Origin: Acholeplasmataceae bacterium
GTDB taxonomy: Bacteria; Bacillota_I; Bacilli_A; Acholeplasmatales; Acholeplasmataceae
Direction: 5' to 3'
NCBI GenBank assembly: GCA_030603805.1
Contig: JAUVXD010000003.1
Location: forward strand, 1 to 64,000
Length of the DNA stretch: 64,000 nucleotides
The position numbers and the translations under genes are program-made. Below the pieces are notes generated by a model that was not told where the DNA came from, made no database searches, and saw only the letters and a list, made by a program, of their open reading frames with translations. Positions 2,071 through 49,079 of the stretch are shown piece after piece (within the stretch, counting starts at the first letter, position 1; the number at the start of each line of letters is the position of its first letter).

Positions 2071-2994
2071 ATGCGTACACTTGATATAACAACTTTTAAA
2101 AAAGCAATCAGCAAACATAAAATACTATCGTGTCTTGTACATTATGGAGATAATGAGGTGCTAAGATACTTTTCTAACAAAAAAACGGAAAATCAACTTC
2201 ATACAATCAACTCAGTAACAAAATCAATAGTTGGATTGCTTGTTGGTATTGCGCTTGAAGAAAAATTGATAGAAAGTATTGACATGCCTATCATCACATA
2301 TTTTCCAGAGTATATAAATCTATTCGATGATTCAAGAAAACAAGAAATTACTTTAAGACATCTTTTATCAATGACTGATGGTATGGATTGGCCCGAGTTT
2401 GGCAGTTGGAATTATTTCGCTCCGATGGTTTATCAATCAGATATTATTGCCTATATTCTATCAAGACCAATGGTGCATGCACCAGGCAAAATAATGAACT
2501 ATAATTCTGGATCCTCACACCTGATTGGTGCAATAATTCAAAAGGTTTCAAATCAAAAGATCCATGATTATGCAAAAAGAAAACTATTTCTGCCACTAGG
2601 AATACTTGAATCACATTGGCACGAAAAACAAGGTGTATCATTGGCATCCGATGGCTTAAAGCTAAAAATTGATGATATGCTTAAGATTGGTAAACTCATC
2701 TTAAATCATGGACAAAAAATTGTACCTGAAAATTGGATTAGAACAATGACAACACCATTTTTGAAGACATATGCTTCATTAGGACACTATGGCTATCATA
2801 TATGGATTGATGAGTACCGAGGTACTCGGTATCATTATGCACTAGGATATGGTGGTCAATTTTTGGTTATAGTGCCAAAGCATTGCTTGGTGATCGTTTT
2901 AACAAGTCGCTTATACAAGGATTCCATGTTTCCACTTTATTTAATAAAAGAGCATATTTTTGATCAATTAAATGGCTCTCAAGTAAATATTTAG
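2071..2994 (+). CDS. Serine hydrolase, beta-lactamase/class C fold
   Basis: A 307-residue protein of the PF00144 family (beta-lactamase-like esterases and peptidases). The SxxK nucleophile motif is S48-V-T-K51, the second motif is Y144-N-S, and the third region reads GYGGQ at 259-263 followed by a hydrophobic strand, as in 6-aminohexanoate-dimer-hydrolase-like members. No signal peptide is visible, so it is probably cytoplasmic. The substrate cannot be told; without a peptidoglycan wall a penicillin target is unlikely. The ribosome binding site is GAGGAG before ATG. It is monocistronic, with a terminator at 3061-3086. Confidence 0.85.
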   Translation: MRTLDITTFKKAISKHKILSCLVHYGDNEVLRYFSNKKTENQLHTINSVTKSIVGLLVGIALEEKLIESIDMPIITYFPEYINLFDDSRKQEITLRHLLSMTDGMDWPEFGSWNYFAPMVYQSDIIAYILSRPMVHAPGKIMNYNSGSSHLIGAIIQKVSNQKIHDYAKRKLFLPLGILESHWHEKQGVSLASDGLKLKIDDMLKIGKLILNHGQKIVPENWIRTMTTPFLKTYASLGHYGYHIWIDEYRGTRYHYALGYGGQFLVIVPKHCLVIVLTSRLYKDSMFPLYLIKEHIFDQLNGSQVNI

Positions 2995-3060
2995 GTTTAT
3001 AAAATATGATTTATTGGGTCAATACAACGTTCATTGTTCACTGTTTATGCTTTTAATGAG

Positions 3061-3086
3061 AAGAGCCATCAAAAATGATGGTTTTT
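3061..3086 (+). terminator. Rho-independent terminator
   Basis: CCATCA (3066-3071) pairs with TGATGG (3076-3081) over an AAAA loop. The stem is extended by A-T and G-T pairs to about 11 bp and a T-run follows. The rest of the 2995-3422 gap shows only the promoter at 3368. Confidence 0.65.
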
Positions 3087-3367
3087 CTTCTGATGTGGAC
3101 GTAAGCTTGTAATCTGTCGGCATTAAATATCTTGTTGTAGCATGTGGATATTTTCATTTTAGATGATGACATATTTCTCAATTCTATTTCTTAAGAGTTC
3201 ATAGCGATTCTACCCAGAACTTAATAATGCATTTTTAGAACTTTTTTAGGCCAAGAAGTTATAATAAGCAATATGTTGTATTTAAGCTCATTTTGATTAC
3301 ATAAAAACTTTGAAATATGGTATTCATATGATTAATCATAACTAAAATAGCCTCATCAATCCATTTA

Positions 3368-3376
3368 TGTTATACT
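3368..3376 (+). promoter_or_regulatory. Extended -10 promoter
   Basis: TGT followed by TATACT (3371-3376), 46 nt before the acetyltransferase start. No -35 match is seen. Confidence 0.45.
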
Positions 3377-3422
3377 AGCAACAAGTAAAATACATTTAAC
3401 AAAGTCATTTTTAGGGGAAGAC

Positions 3423-3920
3423 ATGATCAAGACAAGAAGACTAGAAATTGTAGAGTTCAAGGTAGAGATGGCAGAATCTGTCTCGTTACTCTCATTAGAT
3501 GAAGATAACAAAAGATTTATGCCAGATGAGGTATTTGAAACAAAGGAAATTGCTGAAACTGTTATTATGAGTTTAATCGAAGCATATCAATGTGAAAATG
3601 GACCTTTTGTATATCCTATTTTATTCAATAGAAAGCATATTGGGCATGTTGAATTAATTCGTATCGATAAGGGATATGAAGTAGGTTATCATATTGGAAA
3701 AGCGTATTGCGGATTAGGATATGCAACAGAAGCATTAATTGGTTTTTTAAATTATATATGTAAGGTAAAAAAGATTGACAAGGTTTATGGAATCTGTGAC
3801 TCAAAAAATGTTGCTTCACAAAAAGTATTGATTAAAGCAGGTTTTGTCCTTGAATATGAGGGTATGGGAAAGTATCATGGATCTGTAACTCATATTTGTA
3901 GATACCAAAAAGTTTTTTAA
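3423..3920 (+). CDS. GNAT-family N-acetyltransferase (RimJ/RimL-like)
   Basis: A 165-residue protein with the Acetyltransf_3 pattern. The opening MIKTRRLEIVEF strand is typical of RimJ/RimL-type enzymes. An acetyl-CoA pyrophosphate loop GLGYATEAL sits near residue 97, and NVASQKVLIKAGF near residue 127 is the usual closing helix and strand. It should transfer an acetyl group from acetyl-CoA to an amine; the substrate is not predictable. The start is behind GGGGAAG. It is monocistronic, with an extended -10 promoter. Confidence 0.85.
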   Translation: MIKTRRLEIVEFKVEMAESVSLLSLDEDNKRFMPDEVFETKEIAETVIMSLIEAYQCENGPFVYPILFNRKHIGHVELIRIDKGYEVGYHIGKAYCGLGYATEALIGFLNYICKVKKIDKVYGICDSKNVASQKVLIKAGFVLEYEGMGKYHGSVTHICRYQKVF

Positions 3921-4010
3921 AAAATGGTTGCTGTCATTATTCTTTTATCATTATCTATTCTACAAATACAGGGTATATCGCATAATTTTAAGCTGTGTTA
4001 TGTTAAAATA

Positions 4011-4019
4011 TCATCAAGT
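4011..4019 (+). promoter_or_regulatory. Extended -10 promoter
   Basis: TGT followed by TAAAAT (4014-4019), 27 nt before the membrane-protein gene at 4046. Confidence 0.4.
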
Positions 4020-4045
4020 GATGAATTAATCATTGAGGGGGAAAT

Positions 4046-4570
4046 ATGATTAAAATCGTAAAAATAATCTCTTTTATCGCTTTTTTAATCGCACTCATCT
4101 ATAGTGCAGTTGTTTATGTTTTATCTAGTATAATACTGAGCATGCATACCAATTATAAAACATTTGATGATTATCAAACATTTGAACATGAAATCGATAG
4201 CATCCTAATTGCAGAAGAAACAGTATACATTGATGATTATTTCCTAAGTCAAAAAAGTTTAGATGTTTTTCTTAGTAACCAAGGTCTTGACTTAATTAAA
4301 GAAGGAGATATCGTAACTCTATCTGTTGGACAAACTGGATGGGGAGATTCATTTATTGCACCAATCGTAATGATTGAAAAAGATGGTGTAATCTATTTGG
4401 ATTTTGAGACAGGGGTCAATCACTTGATAGATGCATATCAAGAGATGGTTAACACAGTATACAAAGCATTGATTTTACCAGTATCAATCGCTGTTGTCTC
4501 ACTTTCTCTTGGCATTGTCATAATCATTAAAGAAAGAAAGATTTCAAAGCATATTAAAGTGTTGAGTTAA
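4046..4570 (+). CDS. Small two-TM membrane protein, unknown
   Basis: A 174-residue protein I do not recognise. It has a hydrophobic segment at about 7-33, a soluble acidic middle of about 105 residues rich in beta-strand propensity, a second hydrophobic segment at about 144-162, and a basic tail (KERKISKHIK). The middle would lie outside the cell if the N-terminus is inside. The ribosome binding site is GAGGGGG. The next gene, also a small membrane protein, begins 13 bp later, so the two are likely co-transcribed. Confidence 0.75.
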   Translation: MIKIVKIISFIAFLIALIYSAVVYVLSSIILSMHTNYKTFDDYQTFEHEIDSILIAEETVYIDDYFLSQKSLDVFLSNQGLDLIKEGDIVTLSVGQTGWGDSFIAPIVMIEKDGVIYLDFETGVNHLIDAYQEMVNTVYKALILPVSIAVVSLSLGIVIIIKERKISKHIKVLS

Positions 4571-4582
4571 CAAGAAGAATAT

Positions 4583-5017
4583 ATGATGAAACCACTTGCT
4601 TATCGATATCAAAATAAAATACTTTATATGAGTTATGGGGGCGCATTACCACTCACTATGCTACTTTTTAGTGTTTTAGTCTTCATATATATTGAGATGA
4701 TTATCGTTCAAATCATCGCAATCATCATCGGCCTACTCGTTATCTTATACCTCATTAAAGAAATTAAAGAACATAGAAAACCTCATATCATACTATCATA
4801 CACTGATAAATGTATTTATTACCATACATCAAAAAAGAAGAATATCATAATTGACTTTCATGATATCCAATCTGTTACTGCACATCAAAGAAAGAAGAAC
4901 ATCCATTATGTTTATGGCAAACTAGACATAAAACTTAAAGAAAAAACACTCGTCATTTCAGATGTTTTAAATCCAGAAAATGTGCAAGATGAGATCTTAA
5001 AACGACTTAAAAATTGA
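4583..5017 (+). CDS. Membrane protein with PH-like tail (STM3941-like)
   Basis: A 144-residue protein with two adjacent hydrophobic segments (about 17-38 and 40-60) forming a hairpin. A basic beta-rich domain of about 80 residues follows (HIILSYTDKCIYYH onward), in the style of STM3941/YdbT-like bacterial PH domains. No function is known. The architecture resembles the C-terminal part of the XRE protein at 429-1151. It starts with tandem ATGs behind GAAGAA, in the same unit as the preceding membrane protein. Confidence 0.7.
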   Translation: MMKPLAYRYQNKILYMSYGGALPLTMLLFSVLVFIYIEMIIVQIIAIIIGLLVILYLIKEIKEHRKPHIILSYTDKCIYYHTSKKKNIIIDFHDIQSVTAHQRKKNIHYVYGKLDIKLKEKTLVISDVLNPENVQDEILKRLKN

Positions 5018-9747: not shown

Positions 9748-10566
9748 ATGAGTTTTATTCAAGAGCATATCATTTCAATAGATTTAGGCTTATCAAAGAC
9801 ATATCATTTCATTCAAATCAATGATGTTCATGTCGTGACTTATAGTCAAGATATAGATGATTATATGGCGATTGAAAAAGCATTAAATCAAGAAAAAGTA
9901 TGGATGAAGCAAAGATTAGATTTTGCCCACAAATTTAAAGAGTCTTTTGATCCAAAATATATGCTACCATCCACTGAATGTTTGAATCAACTCATTGATT
10001 ATTCAAATCAAAACAATCCGGATTTAGTCTTATTATCTGGAGATTTGGTTGATTATTATAGTCTGTCTAATCTTGACTATCTTGAAAAGTCCTTAAAGAA
10101 ATTAAGAAAGCCTTATATTTTTTCATGTGGAAATCACGAATCACCCTCAGAACTATTTGTAAATATTTGTCAAGGAAATTGTGATTTTGGGTATGTTGAT
10201 TTAAATGAATTCATTGTTGTTTCCATGGATAATTCTAAAAGACAAATTAAGCCTTCTCAATTCGAAGCTTTGAAAAAGATTCATGACTTGAATAAGCCAA
10301 TCATACTGATGATGCATATTCCAATTATGACAAGACATAATGAAGATTTTTTCTCAAAGTTGGATGACTATTATTCGATGAAATATAATGCATCCGACGA
10401 AACCACAACAAATTTTATCCATTATATATCTTCAAGTAGTCAAATTAAAGCGATGTTTTGTGGCCACATCCATGGAGCGATAACTTCATTCATCGCTCCT
10501 AGTACTCCTCAGTATTGTTGCTCAAGTGGTCTAATTGGCCATGTAAACAAGATAATCATCAAATAG
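9748..10566 (+). CDS. Calcineurin-like metallophosphoesterase
   Basis: A 272-residue protein with the PF00149 metal-site motifs in order: DVH near residue 26, SGDLVDY near 97, GNHES near 128, a lone His in MMHIPIM and GHIHG near 235. These bind two metals for phosphoester hydrolysis; the substrate is unknown. There is no signal peptide. ATG 9748 is preferred because AAGGTG (9734-9739) is 8 nt upstream. It is followed at 26 bp by a histidine phosphatase, probably the same operon. Confidence 0.87.
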   Translation: MSFIQEHIISIDLGLSKTYHFIQINDVHVVTYSQDIDDYMAIEKALNQEKVWMKQRLDFAHKFKESFDPKYMLPSTECLNQLIDYSNQNNPDLVLLSGDLVDYYSLSNLDYLEKSLKKLRKPYIFSCGNHESPSELFVNICQGNCDFGYVDLNEFIVVSMDNSKRQIKPSQFEALKKIHDLNKPIILMMHIPIMTRHNEDFFSKLDDYYSMKYNASDETTTNFIHYISSSSQIKAMFCGHIHGAITSFIAPSTPQYCCSSGLIGHVNKIIIK

Positions 10567-43484: not shown

Positions 43485-44378
43485 ATGTCACGCCGCACAA
43501 AATCATTTTTGATTATCGGTTTAGTTTATCTTTTAGCTATCATTATTGGAACTCTTATATTCTTAAACTTATCAAATCTATCACTATGGTTTCGAGTGCT
43601 TATAGCAGACATAAGTGCAACACTTTTCATTTGGGTGATGAGCTTGATTCTTAAGAATGCAAGTCTATATGATCCTTACTGGAGTGTAATACCTCCAGCG
43701 ATTTTGATTTTAGTCGGCTTCTATTTAAATGTTGCTTTGACACTACCTATCTTTTTACTATATGTTCCCATGCTATTATGGTCAATTCGGTTAACGTATA
43801 ACTGGGCGAGTCTATGGACTGGATTTGATGAAGTTGATTGGCGATATGAAAAAATTAGAAAAAGTGCACCTAAACTATATCCCTTGTCCAATCTATTAGG
43901 TATCCAATTATTTCCAACACTCATTGTCTATATTCAATTGCTTGCAGGAATTCTCTTTATATCTTCAAACCCAGAGCTTAATCTTTTAATGATTTTAGGC
44001 TCACTCATCATGACACTTGCTGTATTGATTCAACTCATATCAGATGAGCAAATGAAGGCATTTAAGAAGAAAAACAAAGGGCAAAAGCGTTGTATAGAAG
44101 AAGGACTATGGAAGTATTCTAGACATCCTAACTATTTTGGTGAGATTATGGTGTGGTGGGGATTATATTTACTCTATCTGTCACACGCTAAAACCATTGA
44201 TTTATATGTGTTAGCACCGATATTGATGACCGCCTTGTTTCTTTTCATTAGTATTCCTTGGATGGAAAAGAAAATCATTTCAACGCGTCCAGAGTATCAG
44301 GCATATCAAGAACGCGTTTCGATGTTGGTTCCATTTTTTAGAAAAGAAGCACTCGATGTTAAGACGAAAAATGCTTGA
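43485..44378 (+). CDS. DUF1295 membrane protein (steroid reductase/ICMT-like)
   Basis: A 297-residue protein with about seven hydrophobic segments. DPYWSVIPP, WRYEKIRK and the C-terminal RHPNYFGEIMVWWGLYL fit DUF1295 (PF06966), related to isoprenylcysteine methyltransferases and 3-oxo-5-alpha-steroid reductases. The RHPNYxGE motif binds the cofactor (SAM or NADPH) in relatives. The substrate is unknown; a lipid is likely. AGGGGG precedes ATG. It may be transcribed with the FAS operon, and its stop lies inside the next promoter. Confidence 0.85.
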   Translation: MSRRTKSFLIIGLVYLLAIIIGTLIFLNLSNLSLWFRVLIADISATLFIWVMSLILKNASLYDPYWSVIPPAILILVGFYLNVALTLPIFLLYVPMLLWSIRLTYNWASLWTGFDEVDWRYEKIRKSAPKLYPLSNLLGIQLFPTLIVYIQLLAGILFISSNPELNLLMILGSLIMTLAVLIQLISDEQMKAFKKKNKGQKRCIEEGLWKYSRHPNYFGEIMVWWGLYLLYLSHAKTIDLYVLAPILMTALFLFISIPWMEKKIISTRPEYQAYQERVSMLVPFFRKEALDVKTKNA

Positions 44379-44402
44379 CAAACGTTAAGTTCTAAATATA
44401 AT
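44375..44402 (+). promoter_or_regulatory. Promoter of riboswitch-controlled antiporter
   Basis: A perfect TTGACA (44375-44380), overlapping the DUF1295 stop, a 16-bp spacer and a perfect TATAAT (44397-44402). Confidence 0.8.
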
Positions 44403-44407
44403 AAAAA

Positions 44408-44493
44408 GAGGGAATGAACGTCTCCCCAAGTCTTTGACTTAAACCGCGAAAGCTGATGACTTCTGCAACTTTTTTGTTGTGGAGTCTTTTTTT
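44408..44493 (+). promoter_or_regulatory. Fluoride riboswitch (crcB motif) with terminator
   Basis: P1 is GGGA (44410-44413) with TCCC (44423-44426). The loop GAAcGTC (44416-44422) can form a pseudoknot with GACTTC (44458-44463). The conserved AACC-GC-GAAA-GC-TGATGAC block spans 44442-44460, as in fluoride aptamers. A small AAGTC/GACTT hairpin is inserted at 44428-44440. The terminator (GACTTC-T-GCAAC with GTTGT-GGAGTC, then Ts) reuses the pseudoknot strand. Ligand binding should therefore prevent termination and turn on the antiporter. Confidence 0.8.
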
Positions 44494-44505
44494 TAGGAGA
44501 AAACT

Positions 44506-45684: not shown

Positions 45685-45700
45685 AAACTTCAAAAAACAT

Positions 45701-45740
45701 AAAAAAAGAGTACAATATACATAGAGTATTCTTTTTTTTT
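45701..45740 (+). terminator. Rho-independent terminator
   Basis: AAGAGTAC (45706-45713) pairs with GTATTCTT (45726-45733), followed by a long T-run. Confidence 0.7.
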
Positions 45741-45824: not shown

Positions 45825-46244
45825 ATGAAAAGAAATAAATTTATCGTGATTGGCTCTGGTCGACTTGGAGCGAATATTGCGACCAAAATGTCAGAAATGG
45901 GAGAAGATGTCATCATTATTGATGCGACAGATGACTCATTTCGTAAACTGCAAGATACGTTTTCTGGTTATCAAGTTGTCGGTGATGCGACAGATTTATC
46001 TGTTTTAGAAAACTCATATATCAAACATGCAAAGACTGTTGTAATAACTACAGATAGCGATAATGTCAATATTTACTTGTCACATATTTGTTATTATGTT
46101 TATAATGTCCCAAAAATCTTTGTGAGACTTGCGGATACTGAAAAAGGTCGATTGCTTGAAGGTACCTACATTAAAGCAATTTACCCATTTACCCTCTCTT
46201 TAAATGAGTTTATGACGTTAAATGAAGAGGAGGATGACCTATGA
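45825..46244 (+). CDS. TrkA/KtrA-type RCK subunit, N-domain only
   Basis: A 139-residue protein consisting of one TrkA_N (RCK) Rossmann domain: VIGSGRLGANIATKM at the start, the acidic strand end IIDATD and VVGDATD. It lacks a TrkA_C domain. Such subunits gate K+ channels in response to nucleotides. It starts at ATG 45825 behind AAAGGAG (the upstream in-frame codons lack a site). It overlaps the next RCK gene by 4 bp; the pair probably forms a mixed gating ring for the TrkH protein. Confidence 0.88.
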   Translation: MKRNKFIVIGSGRLGANIATKMSEMGEDVIIIDATDDSFRKLQDTFSGYQVVGDATDLSVLENSYIKHAKTVVITTDSDNVNIYLSHICYYVYNVPKIFVRLADTEKGRLLEGTYIKAIYPFTLSLNEFMTLNEEEDDL

Positions 46245-46903
46245 AAATCGTGATTACTGGTGGTAAGCATGAAGCTGACTTTATTGTCAAAATGCTTAAA
46301 GAAGAACATCATCAACTGATTGTCATCAACCAAGACCGTGAATTTGCTGAATATATCAGCAGTCATAACGACATTCCAGTATTTCCTGGAGATGCAACTA
46401 AAGCCTATACATTATCTGATGCAGAAGCACAAAATGCTGATGTGCTTTTAGCATTATCAGATAATGATACGGATAACTATATCACATGTATCACTGCAAA
46501 AAGACTTTTTAACATTAAAAAAACAGTATCGAAAGTTAGAAACCCTAAAAATGTAGAGCTCTTTAAAAAACTTGGAATTGATAGTGTCATTTCATCAACC
46601 TATTTACTTGCACAAACTATCTTAAACGAATCATCAGTTGAAAAGATTATTAAAACACTTTCTATCGAAGATGAAAAAATTGTGATGATGGAACTTGGTA
46701 TCGATGAAGATTTCGCATTGGTTAATAAAAGACTGATGGACATCCATTTCCCTAAAAATATCAATATCAGTTGTATCTTTAGAGATCCCCATGTGATTAT
46801 TCCTAAAGGGGATACAGTCATCCGTTCCGGAGATAAACTGATTATTATCACCACACCGAACGAAGAAGATGAAATCATCGAATTCATACAGAAAAGAAGA
46901 TAA
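46241..46903 (+). CDS. TrkA-type K+ uptake subunit (TrkA_N plus TrkA_C)
   Basis: A 220-residue protein with TrkA_N at 1-125 (KIVITGGKHEADFIVKML, a variant of GxGxxG; PVFPGDATKAYTL) and TrkA_C at about 140-220 (VIPKGDTVIRSGDKLIIITTP). The first glycine motif is degenerate (TGGKHEA), so nucleotide binding may be shifted to the partner subunit. GAGGAGG in the previous gene supports the start. It is followed after 3 bp by the TrkH channel gene. Confidence 0.88.
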   Translation: MKIVITGGKHEADFIVKMLKEEHHQLIVINQDREFAEYISSHNDIPVFPGDATKAYTLSDAEAQNADVLLALSDNDTDNYITCITAKRLFNIKKTVSKVRNPKNVELFKKLGIDSVISSTYLLAQTILNESSVEKIIKTLSIEDEKIVMMELGIDEDFALVNKRLMDIHFPKNINISCIFRDPHVIIPKGDTVIRSGDKLIIITTPNEEDEIIEFIQKRR

Positions 46904-46906
46904 CTT

Positions 46907-48379
46907 ATGAACAGAAAGATACTTTCAGGATATCCATTAATCATCAATTATCTTGGTATTTTTTCCATTTTAATTGGACTTATCAACTTGATACCACTCA
47001 TATTAATTCCATTCCATATGGAATCGATGAGTGATGCATATCTTTTTCTATATCCTGGATTAGGAAGTATTTTATTAGGATCAATTATCGTTTTATTCTT
47101 TCGAAAATCTGAAAAAGGAAAACTTGAAAAACATCAAGATGCCATTTTGGTGGTCAGTATTTGGATTATTGCAATTTTAATTTCATCCATCCCTTTCATA
47201 CTTACTGGTAACTATACGTTAACTCAAGCTATATTTGAATCAACAAGTGGATATTCAACCACAGGTCTGACTGTAGTTAATGTTGAACAAGCACCTAAAT
47301 CATTACTTCTTTTTAGAAGCTTACTACAGTTTTTTGGTGGAATTGGTCTTGTGTTGGTTCTGACATCAGCCATTTCGGATAAGTTCGGCATGAGACTCTA
47401 TAGTGCGGAAGGACATAGTGACAAACTAGTTCCTAACCTCATCCGATCAGCTCGACTGATCTTATCTATTTACATTGGTTATATTATTGTTGGTGTTATT
47501 TTCTTCAGAATCTTTGGGATGGAGTTCTTTGATGCCGTTAATCATGCGATTAGTGCGGTTGCAACAGGAGGTTTTTCGACAAAAGCACTGAGTATTGGAC
47601 ATTATAATAGCTTAGCTATTGAGATAACAACTATGGTTTTAATGCTTTTAGGTGGAACCAATTTCTTTGTTCACTTAATGCTTCTTAGAGGAAAAATCAA
47701 AAATGTCATTTCACATGTGGAAATTAAATTATTGTTTGTGATGCTTTTGATTGGTATACCCTTGTTTACTTTTAATTTAGCAACATCTAATCAGGATAGT
47801 TTTGGTATGGCACTTCGTGTTGGATCTTTTCAATTCATCTCAGCAGTCACTGGAACAGGTTATCAAACTGTGACATCATTTACTGGAGTTGGCACACCGA
47901 GCTTATTTTTCTTTGGACTCATCATTCTCATGGTATTAGGTGCTGGTATGGGTTCAACAGCAGGTGGTATGAAGCAATATCGTGTTGCGCTTGCTTTTAA
48001 AAGTATGTATTGGAATATTAAGGACCAACTCACTCACAAAAAAACGATTAGAACTCATTTTATTAATAAGCTTGGAACAAAGACAATCATTGACAAAGAT
48101 GATGTGATACAAAACCATTCTTTCTTAATGGTCTATCTTATAGTGTTGATTATTGGAACGCTTGCATTTACTGCTTATGGTTTTCAACTCGAGCATGCAC
48201 TCTTTGAATTTGCCTCTGCCTTAGGAACAGTAGGATTATCTGTGGGTATAACTGGTGCACATGCCGCATCAGGTATCTTATGGATATCAACATTGGGAAT
48301 GTTCTTAGGACGTCTTGAGTTTTATGTCATCTTCGTTGCAATCGTTAAAGTGACAACAGATTTAACAAAGAAAAATTAA
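46907..48379 (+). CDS. TrkH/KtrB-type potassium channel subunit
   Basis: A 490-residue membrane protein of the Trk/Ktr/HKT superfamily. Four pore-loop segments are visible: STSGYSTTGL, AISAVATGGFSTK, SAVTGTGYQTV and ASALGTVGLS, each with the selectivity-filter Gly. It has the extra N-terminal helices of TrkH. It imports K+ driven by membrane potential, gated by the two RCK proteins encoded just upstream. A weak terminator follows. Confidence 0.93.
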   Translation: MNRKILSGYPLIINYLGIFSILIGLINLIPLILIPFHMESMSDAYLFLYPGLGSILLGSIIVLFFRKSEKGKLEKHQDAILVVSIWIIAILISSIPFILTGNYTLTQAIFESTSGYSTTGLTVVNVEQAPKSLLLFRSLLQFFGGIGLVLVLTSAISDKFGMRLYSAEGHSDKLVPNLIRSARLILSIYIGYIIVGVIFFRIFGMEFFDAVNHAISAVATGGFSTKALSIGHYNSLAIEITTMVLMLLGGTNFFVHLMLLRGKIKNVISHVEIKLLFVMLLIGIPLFTFNLATSNQDSFGMALRVGSFQFISAVTGTGYQTVTSFTGVGTPSLFFFGLIILMVLGAGMGSTAGGMKQYRVALAFKSMYWNIKDQLTHKKTIRTHFINKLGTKTIIDKDDVIQNHSFLMVYLIVLIIGTLAFTAYGFQLEHALFEFASALGTVGLSVGITGAHAASGILWISTLGMFLGRLEFYVIFVAIVKVTTDLTKKN

Positions 48380-48382
48380 ACG

Positions 48383-48413
48383 AGCTGAAATCCATTGGGT
48401 TTTGGCTTTTTCT
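48383..48413 (+). terminator. Probable terminator after trkH
   Basis: AGCTGAAATCC (48383-48393) pairs imperfectly with GGTTTTGGCT (48398-48407), followed by TTTTTC. Confidence 0.5.
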
Positions 48414-48554
48414 TTGAAAAGTTAACAAAAGAAAAGTCTAAGTGTGATAAAATATTGACAAACATGCAAGATATCATTTCCTGCATGCATCTCATCAAAA
48501 ATCACTTTTTTTATGTATAAGGTCATACTATACTGTAGATAGGAGGAACTCCTG

Positions 48555-49079
48555 ATGTTCAAAATCATTTGGAATAGGGAAGATTTCGAACGGATTGAAT
48601 CAAAGCTCAAAGAGACTTATGATCTCGTCCTGACAAATGATCCAAATGATGTGCCTCTAGATAAGGTTGGCATTGTCTTTGATGAATCCAATATGGATAA
48701 GATTAAACCCGTATTAGATCTCATGGCAAAAGAAAAATCTCAGCTCATGCTACAAACCATCTCAGGATGGATGCAAGTCTATGTGAATGAAATCACATAC
48801 CTTGAAGCATTTGGCGATGAGATTTATATGCATGTCGACCAACTTGAAAGTCAGATCATCAAACAACCACTTTATCAACTAGAACAACTGCTTAAGCCCT
48901 ATCATTTTGTAAGAATCGGTAAATCATTTATTGTCAATATGACAAAAATCAGATTTATTAGAACCGCATTCAATGCGAAACTTGATTTAGAGCTTGTAGA
49001 CGGTACACATCTTGAGGTTTCACGTTCCTTCGTCAAGGATTTTAAGAATGCATTAGGCATTCAAAAAAAGGAGGATTAG
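48555..49079 (+). CDS. LytTR-domain DNA-binding regulator
   Basis: A 174-residue protein with an N-terminal region of about 70 residues of unknown fold and a C-terminal LytTR domain (about 80-170): VNEITYLEAFGDEIYMHV, PLYQLEQLLKPYHFVRIGKSFIVNMTKI and LVDGTHLEVSRSFVKDFKNAL. There is no response-regulator receiver domain and no histidine kinase nearby. LytTR proteins bind paired direct repeats. It lies 1 bp before the beta-propeller gene, so it probably controls that operon. AGGAGG is 8 nt before ATG; a TATACT lies at 48529-48534. Confidence 0.9.
   Translation: MFKIIWNREDFERIESKLKETYDLVLTNDPNDVPLDKVGIVFDESNMDKIKPVLDLMAKEKSQLMLQTISGWMQVYVNEITYLEAFGDEIYMHVDQLESQIIKQPLYQLEQLLKPYHFVRIGKSFIVNMTKIRFIRTAFNAKLDLELVDGTHLEVSRSFVKDFKNALGIQKKED

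Follow-up and report, generated by a model that had tools for sequence, protein, structure and literature searches.

A fluoride riboswitch lies directly ahead of a gene for an NHA2/SLC9B-like cation/proton antiporter in the window (the whole 64,000-nucleotide stretch of an Acholeplasmataceae contig analyzed here), in a genome in which no gene for CrcB or CLC was found. We favor, with moderate confidence, the explanation that the RNA is a fluoride-sensing ON switch acting by transcription antitermination, and that the one gene under its control corrects the acid and ion load imposed by fluoride. The pairing of fluoride riboswitches with Na+/H+ antiporters is already known. In frequency, such antiporters rank second only to the exporters among the gene classes linked to these riboswitches (2024 review PMC11139923, citing Baker et al. 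2012), and CD0656-7 of Clostridioides difficile places a CLC and an NhaP-type antiporter behind one switch (PMC11477304). The regulatory logic and, at the level of the broad class, the transporter are the same in the window, but its antiporter stands alone behind the switch. In the literature searched, no paper joined a fluoride riboswitch with Acholeplasma, and neither the NHA2 identity, nor its standing alone in exporter-less genomes, nor the avoidance of CrcB by the antiporter family was found there. As far as searched, the near-constant pairing (70/73), the CrcB-less order, the CLC-less genus, and the avoidance of CrcB in Clostridia are new.

The crcB covariance model (RF01734), a check proposed in the preliminary description of this DNA, matched the forward strand over its full length (positions 1 to 64) with 37.2 bits, compared with a gathering score of 34 bits and with an E value of 1.1e-6 for 64 kb and 4,227 families. 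This site is also the sole match in the 2.06-Mb, 99.9% complete genome (genome-wide E value, 8.7e-9). The hallmarks recognized earlier from the sequence (P1, its loop pairing with GACTTC, and the AACC core) were all located within the match, and the pseudoknot and the ACCGC/GCTGATGAC core of the family are both present (Table 1). In the alignment of relatives, 90% of the cells of the pseudoknot helix (helix 2) are paired, and columns 18 and 71 change on both sides in 18 sequences. Two-sided changes amount to 122 cells across the helices and pseudoknot of the whole structure, and the covariation score is 0.288, compared with 0.08 in shuffles and no more than 0.05 with the partner slid. The aptamer is genuine and, judged from its sequence, would bind fluoride.

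Table 1. Features of the riboswitch-antiporter locus (window coordinates).
Feature	Position	Strand	Basis or remark
Sigma-70 type promoter TTGACA-16-TATAAT	44375..44402	+	12/12 consensus match
Fluoride riboswitch aptamer (RF01734)	44401..44472	+	Covariance model; P1 starts at 44410
P1 hairpin	44410-44413/44423-44426 (44410..44426)	+	Loop 44416-44422 makes the pseudoknot
Pseudoknot, GAA(C)GUC with GACUUC	44416-44422 with 44458-44463	+	P1 loop with 3' strand
Inserted hairpin AAGTC-TTT-GACTT	44428-44432/44436-44440 (44428..44440)	+	Between P1 and the AACCGC core
Conserved core AACCGC...GCTGATGAC	44442-44447...44452-44460 (44442..44460)	+	Covariance model, alignment
Short P3	44446-44447/44452-44453	+	Inside the AACCGC...GCTGATGAC core
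GACTTC switch element	44458..44463	+	Pseudoknot 3' strand; first six bases of the terminator 5' arm
Intrinsic terminator	Stem 44458-44486, eight T 44487-44494 (44458..44494)	+	Folding
Gene for NHA2/SLC9B-like cation/proton antiporter (PF00999), 392 aa	44506..45684	+	ORF, Pfam; AGGAG ribosome-binding site 44495-44499
A/T-rich terminator-like hairpin after the antiporter gene	45700..45738	+	z = -3.2

The window switch agrees with RF01734 in its full-length match, core, P1, P3, pseudoknot, and terminator-type expression platform, and differs in having a variable, covarying hairpin inserted after P1 and ahead of the core, a trait shared with most of its relatives in the order and in Clostridia. 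This AAGTC/GACTT hairpin had been described as absent from compact examples. It is borne out by two-sided changes at five of the six alignment pairs and by covariation across 59 relatives, but it is not rare, since a hairpin occupies this position in almost every relative in the order and in the majority of the versions from Clostridia. The insert is an ordinary optional covarying element, and its reading as an unusual feature is ruled out.

The upstream promoter, called perfect in the preliminary description, is indeed so. Its -35 box shares bases with the stop codon of the preceding ORF, P1 begins just past the -10 box, and a 12/12 promoter occurs at the same place in 22 of 73 relatives. The expression platform lies downstream of the aptamer and upstream of the gene, in the form of the terminator GACUUCUGCAAC-UUUUUU-GUUGUGGAGUC, which folds with -12.7 kcal/mol (z = -5.5) and as well as which none of 200 shuffles folds. 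As had been proposed from the letters, the terminator reuses the pseudoknot strand, and this sharing is kept in 67 of the 73 relatives; the terminator of several family-f2 genomes extends farther back, into the GCTGATGAC core. Since GACTTC makes up the first six bases of the terminator, the aptamer and terminator are mutually exclusive, and fluoride should therefore switch transcription ON. Without fluoride, GACTTC would join the terminator hairpin and transcription would stop ahead of the antiporter gene; with fluoride, bound as Mg-fluoride, the P1 loop would keep GACTTC in the pseudoknot, so that the terminator is blocked and the antiporter is made.

PF00999 is the sole domain in the antiporter (E value, 2.9e-48). 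The Pfam search found no TrkA-N (KTN), PF02537 (CrcB), or PF00654 (CLC) domain in the protein, and separate trkA genes lie downstream. The earlier assignment to a TrkA-less CPA2-type antiporter thus stands and can be given more exactly as NHA2/SLC9B-like. A profile of 16 orthologues compared with solved structures matched SLC9B2/NHA2 best (E value, 5.6e-70), and NapA followed at 4.5e-11. The AlphaFold2 model of the antiporter (pLDDT 83.8) aligned with human NHA2 with a Z score of 43.5 and an rmsd of 2.8 over 388 residues. Other Na+/H+ antiporters scored close behind, so the fold alone does not settle the NHA2 identity and sequence decides. Residues E95, D158, D159, R312, and K340 correspond in the profile alignment to E215, D278, D279, R432, and K460 of NHA2, which supplies the two aspartates, an arginine in place of the lysine, and the glutamate specific to the NHA2 type. 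In human NHA2, ions are bound by the aspartates D278 and D279, R432, E215, and K460 form a charge network (PMC12072577), and the E215-R432 pair is thought to render NHA2 electroneutral (PMC6181914). Among 151 family members, E95 and R312 are invariant, K340 is kept in 150, and D158 and D159 are kept in 148 and 147, respectively.

Human and bison SLC9B2/NHA2 are the closest solved structures by both sequence and fold, with about 29 to 31% identity, whereas the window antiporter has a shorter N terminus, is bacterial, and stands under a fluoride switch. KefC/NapA-type CPA2 antiporters have the Pfam family and fold in common with it, but the window protein has R rather than K at position 312, has the added E95, is without TrkA-N, and matches them far more weakly than NHA2. 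KefC-like potassium efflux was ruled out by the missing TrkA-N domain and the much closer match to NHA2. The protein is predicted to exchange Na+ (or Li+/K+) for H+.

The terminator-like hairpin after the antiporter gene suggests that the gene is probably transcribed singly. Beyond it lies a trkA_N-trkA-trkH-LytTR block (window positions 45825 to 49079) that is kept in almost every genome of the window's genus and also in some sister genera (L045, L048, L053, and L065, among others). With the hairpin between them, it is unlikely that the switch drives the trk genes as part of the same operon.

The pairing of switch and antiporter is close to constant in the order. Of 160 genomes, 73 have the riboswitch, and an antiporter orthologue (39 to 70% identity) is the first gene after 70 of the 73 sites, a count that leaves out three weak matches and in which one exception is a contig end. 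Good fluoride riboswitches without the antiporter directly downstream were seen at L046 (G104) and L072 (G094), the former genome having another copy with it, and the riboswitch-linked antiporter gene at L064 (G078; contig positions 10007 to 11054) is broken by a frameshift or stops. The best 80 relatives in the public genome collection span Clostridia, Erysipelotrichia, Negativicutes, Spirochaetota, Bacteroidota, and Fibrobacterota, and the riboswitch is present at 55 of their 72 decidable loci. The pairing was seen in Clostridia, Erysipelotrichia, Negativicutes, Brachyspira, and Bacteroidota in differing gene surroundings. Of 393 Clostridia genomes sampled evenly, 66 have the antiporter family, with the riboswitch at 26 of the 30 best loci and at 8 of the 12 lower-scoring loci fetched, including the four most divergent. 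Phyla are interleaved in the antiporter tree (FastTree only), the pattern expected if the cassette moves horizontally. At two Clostridia loci, L128 (about 3060 to 4950) and L157 (about 2730 to 4990), about 2 kb separates the fluoride riboswitch from the antiporter downstream of it, and the switch precedes a gene pair that we take to resemble an iron-sulfur scaffold protein and a GGGtGRT-type protein. A universal-stress-like gene stands between this pair and the antiporter at L157, where the riboswitch heads an operon ending with the antiporter, and which is counted among the 55.

The preliminary description held that the switch drives an antiporter instead of CrcB or CLC-F, and the gene content agrees: neither CrcB (PF02537) nor CLC (PF00654) was detected in the window's genome. 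CrcB did not exceed the cut-off in any of the 160 genomes of the order, nor in any of 50 other genomes in which riboswitch and antiporter are paired. CLC occurs in 24 of the 160 genomes, none of them in the window's genus; the five order CLC proteins inspected all lack the CLC-F signature, and hidden fluoride exporters among these genes were rejected on these grounds. Among the 50 other pair genomes, 29 have a CLC of some kind and about five have the CLC-F signature. Across the 393 Clostridia, the antiporter family (threshold set in a wide gap between E values of 1e-84 and 1e-32) occurs in 66 and CrcB in 84, with both in 2 compared with 14.1 expected, at a p value (1e-5) that is optimistic because the test counts genomes as independent, uncorrected for phylogeny. 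CrcB is found in 3% of the genomes with the antiporter family, in 29% (56/194) of those with other CPA2 paralogues only, and in 20% (26/133) of those without a CPA2 match. Coexistence is possible, since G526 and G581 have CrcB together with a riboswitch-fronted antiporter, and the family is present in two of the six CLC-F genomes of the Clostridia sample. Fluc/CrcB and CLC-F exporters are governed by the same RNA but belong to protein families unrelated to the antiporter. Fluc and CLC-F are seldom together in one genome (PMC11139923), and CLC-F is like the antiporter family in rarely accompanying CrcB. One group of Clostridial CLCs, marked by GREGA and GEIVP-like motifs (L191, L193, L196, L197, L198, L201, L203, L204, L205, and L207) matches neither the chloride type nor the signature of CLC-F; it was considered as a CLC-F variant but not counted as one, since it shows no avoidance of CrcB (20 genomes versus 19.7 expected).

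In the explanation that we favor, fluoride would enter as HF, dissociate, and release protons, and the antiporter would correct the resulting acid and ion load, most probably by driving protons out in exchange for sodium. Proton expulsion by Na+/H+ exchange has been proposed to serve pH homeostasis (PMC11139923), and deletion of NHX1, a yeast Na+/H+ exchanger, is among 32 uniquely fluoride-sensitive deletions (PMC7329995); both independently support a part for Na+/H+ exchange in tolerating fluoride. Proton/sodium homeostasis standing in for a fluoride exporter is most likely the response, and direct export of fluoride by the antiporter is less likely. The ten antiporter orthologues in the order that are without a riboswitch speak against this explanation. 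Further, the family avoids CrcB, though a pure pH helper should adjoin an exporter, which hints at a more central role than help with pH balance, and the useful direction of transport is not obvious because proton extrusion alone raises the internal pH and traps more fluoride.

A possible but tentative proposal is that fluoride-riboswitch-linked NHA2-like antiporters form a third, exporter-replacing route by which bacteria resist fluoride, whether they carry F- themselves or collapse the pH difference responsible for its trapping. If true, it would explain how fluoride is handled in a large set of Acholeplasmatales and Clostridia without Fluc or CLC-F. Taken by itself, collapse of the pH difference seems to us unlikely. 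The riboswitch would act just as in the favored explanation, but protons would be let in against Na+ or K+, and HF would no longer be trapped as F-. How far a weak acid accumulates F- is governed by the pH difference, and lowering that difference would make an exporter unnecessary, which fits the avoidance of CrcB and explains a gene that replaces an exporter rather than joining one. Fluoride adaptation in yeast has been linked to tolerance of a lower internal pH (PMC11139923). The trkA-trkH genes for K+ uptake adjoin the antiporter in the window's family, but they appear to form a separate transcript.

More doubtful is a third bacterial exporter class beside Fluc/CrcB and CLC-F, in which the antiporter itself would export fluoride, for example by F- exchange via an NhaA-type fold. 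The antiporter is the sole fluoride-riboswitch gene of its nearly complete genome, and the absence of CrcB from the order and the other pair genomes, its scarcity beside the family in Clostridia, and its undiminished frequency with other CPA2 paralogues all point in this direction. However, the NHA2 cation site is kept in nearly all members, no feature favoring an anion was seen in them, the avoidance profile is uncorrected for phylogeny, and the genomes noted above combine the antiporter with CrcB or CLC-F. We find it improbable that an unrecognized exporter elsewhere in the genome makes the antiporter a plain accessory: antiporters are known as exporter companions in riboswitch operons, as in C. 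difficile (PMC11477304), but here the genome has a single fluoride riboswitch, a seemingly monocistronic antiporter, and no CrcB or CLC homologue found. A chance motif or dead riboswitch in a merely inherited gene order can be dismissed, for although the score is just 3 bits over gathering, the RF01734 match, its genome-wide E value, and covariation rule out chance, and the conserved terminator overlap and the recurrence of this gene behind the switch in several phyla, with differing neighborhoods, also oppose it.

Fluoride exporters are said to be missing, as a tendency, from bacteria of the Tenericutes group (PMC11139923). Many of them nonetheless keep the fluoride sensor, which almost always drives the antiporter, and the near absence of CrcB beside the antiporter family in two genome sets points to an additional means of coping with fluoride. 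In two Clostridia, an M-box magnesium riboswitch is located no more than 2 kb from a fluoride-riboswitch antiporter (L251, 554 to 715; L259, 944 to 1103). This closeness may or may not be due to chance; fluoride binds its own switch together with magnesium.
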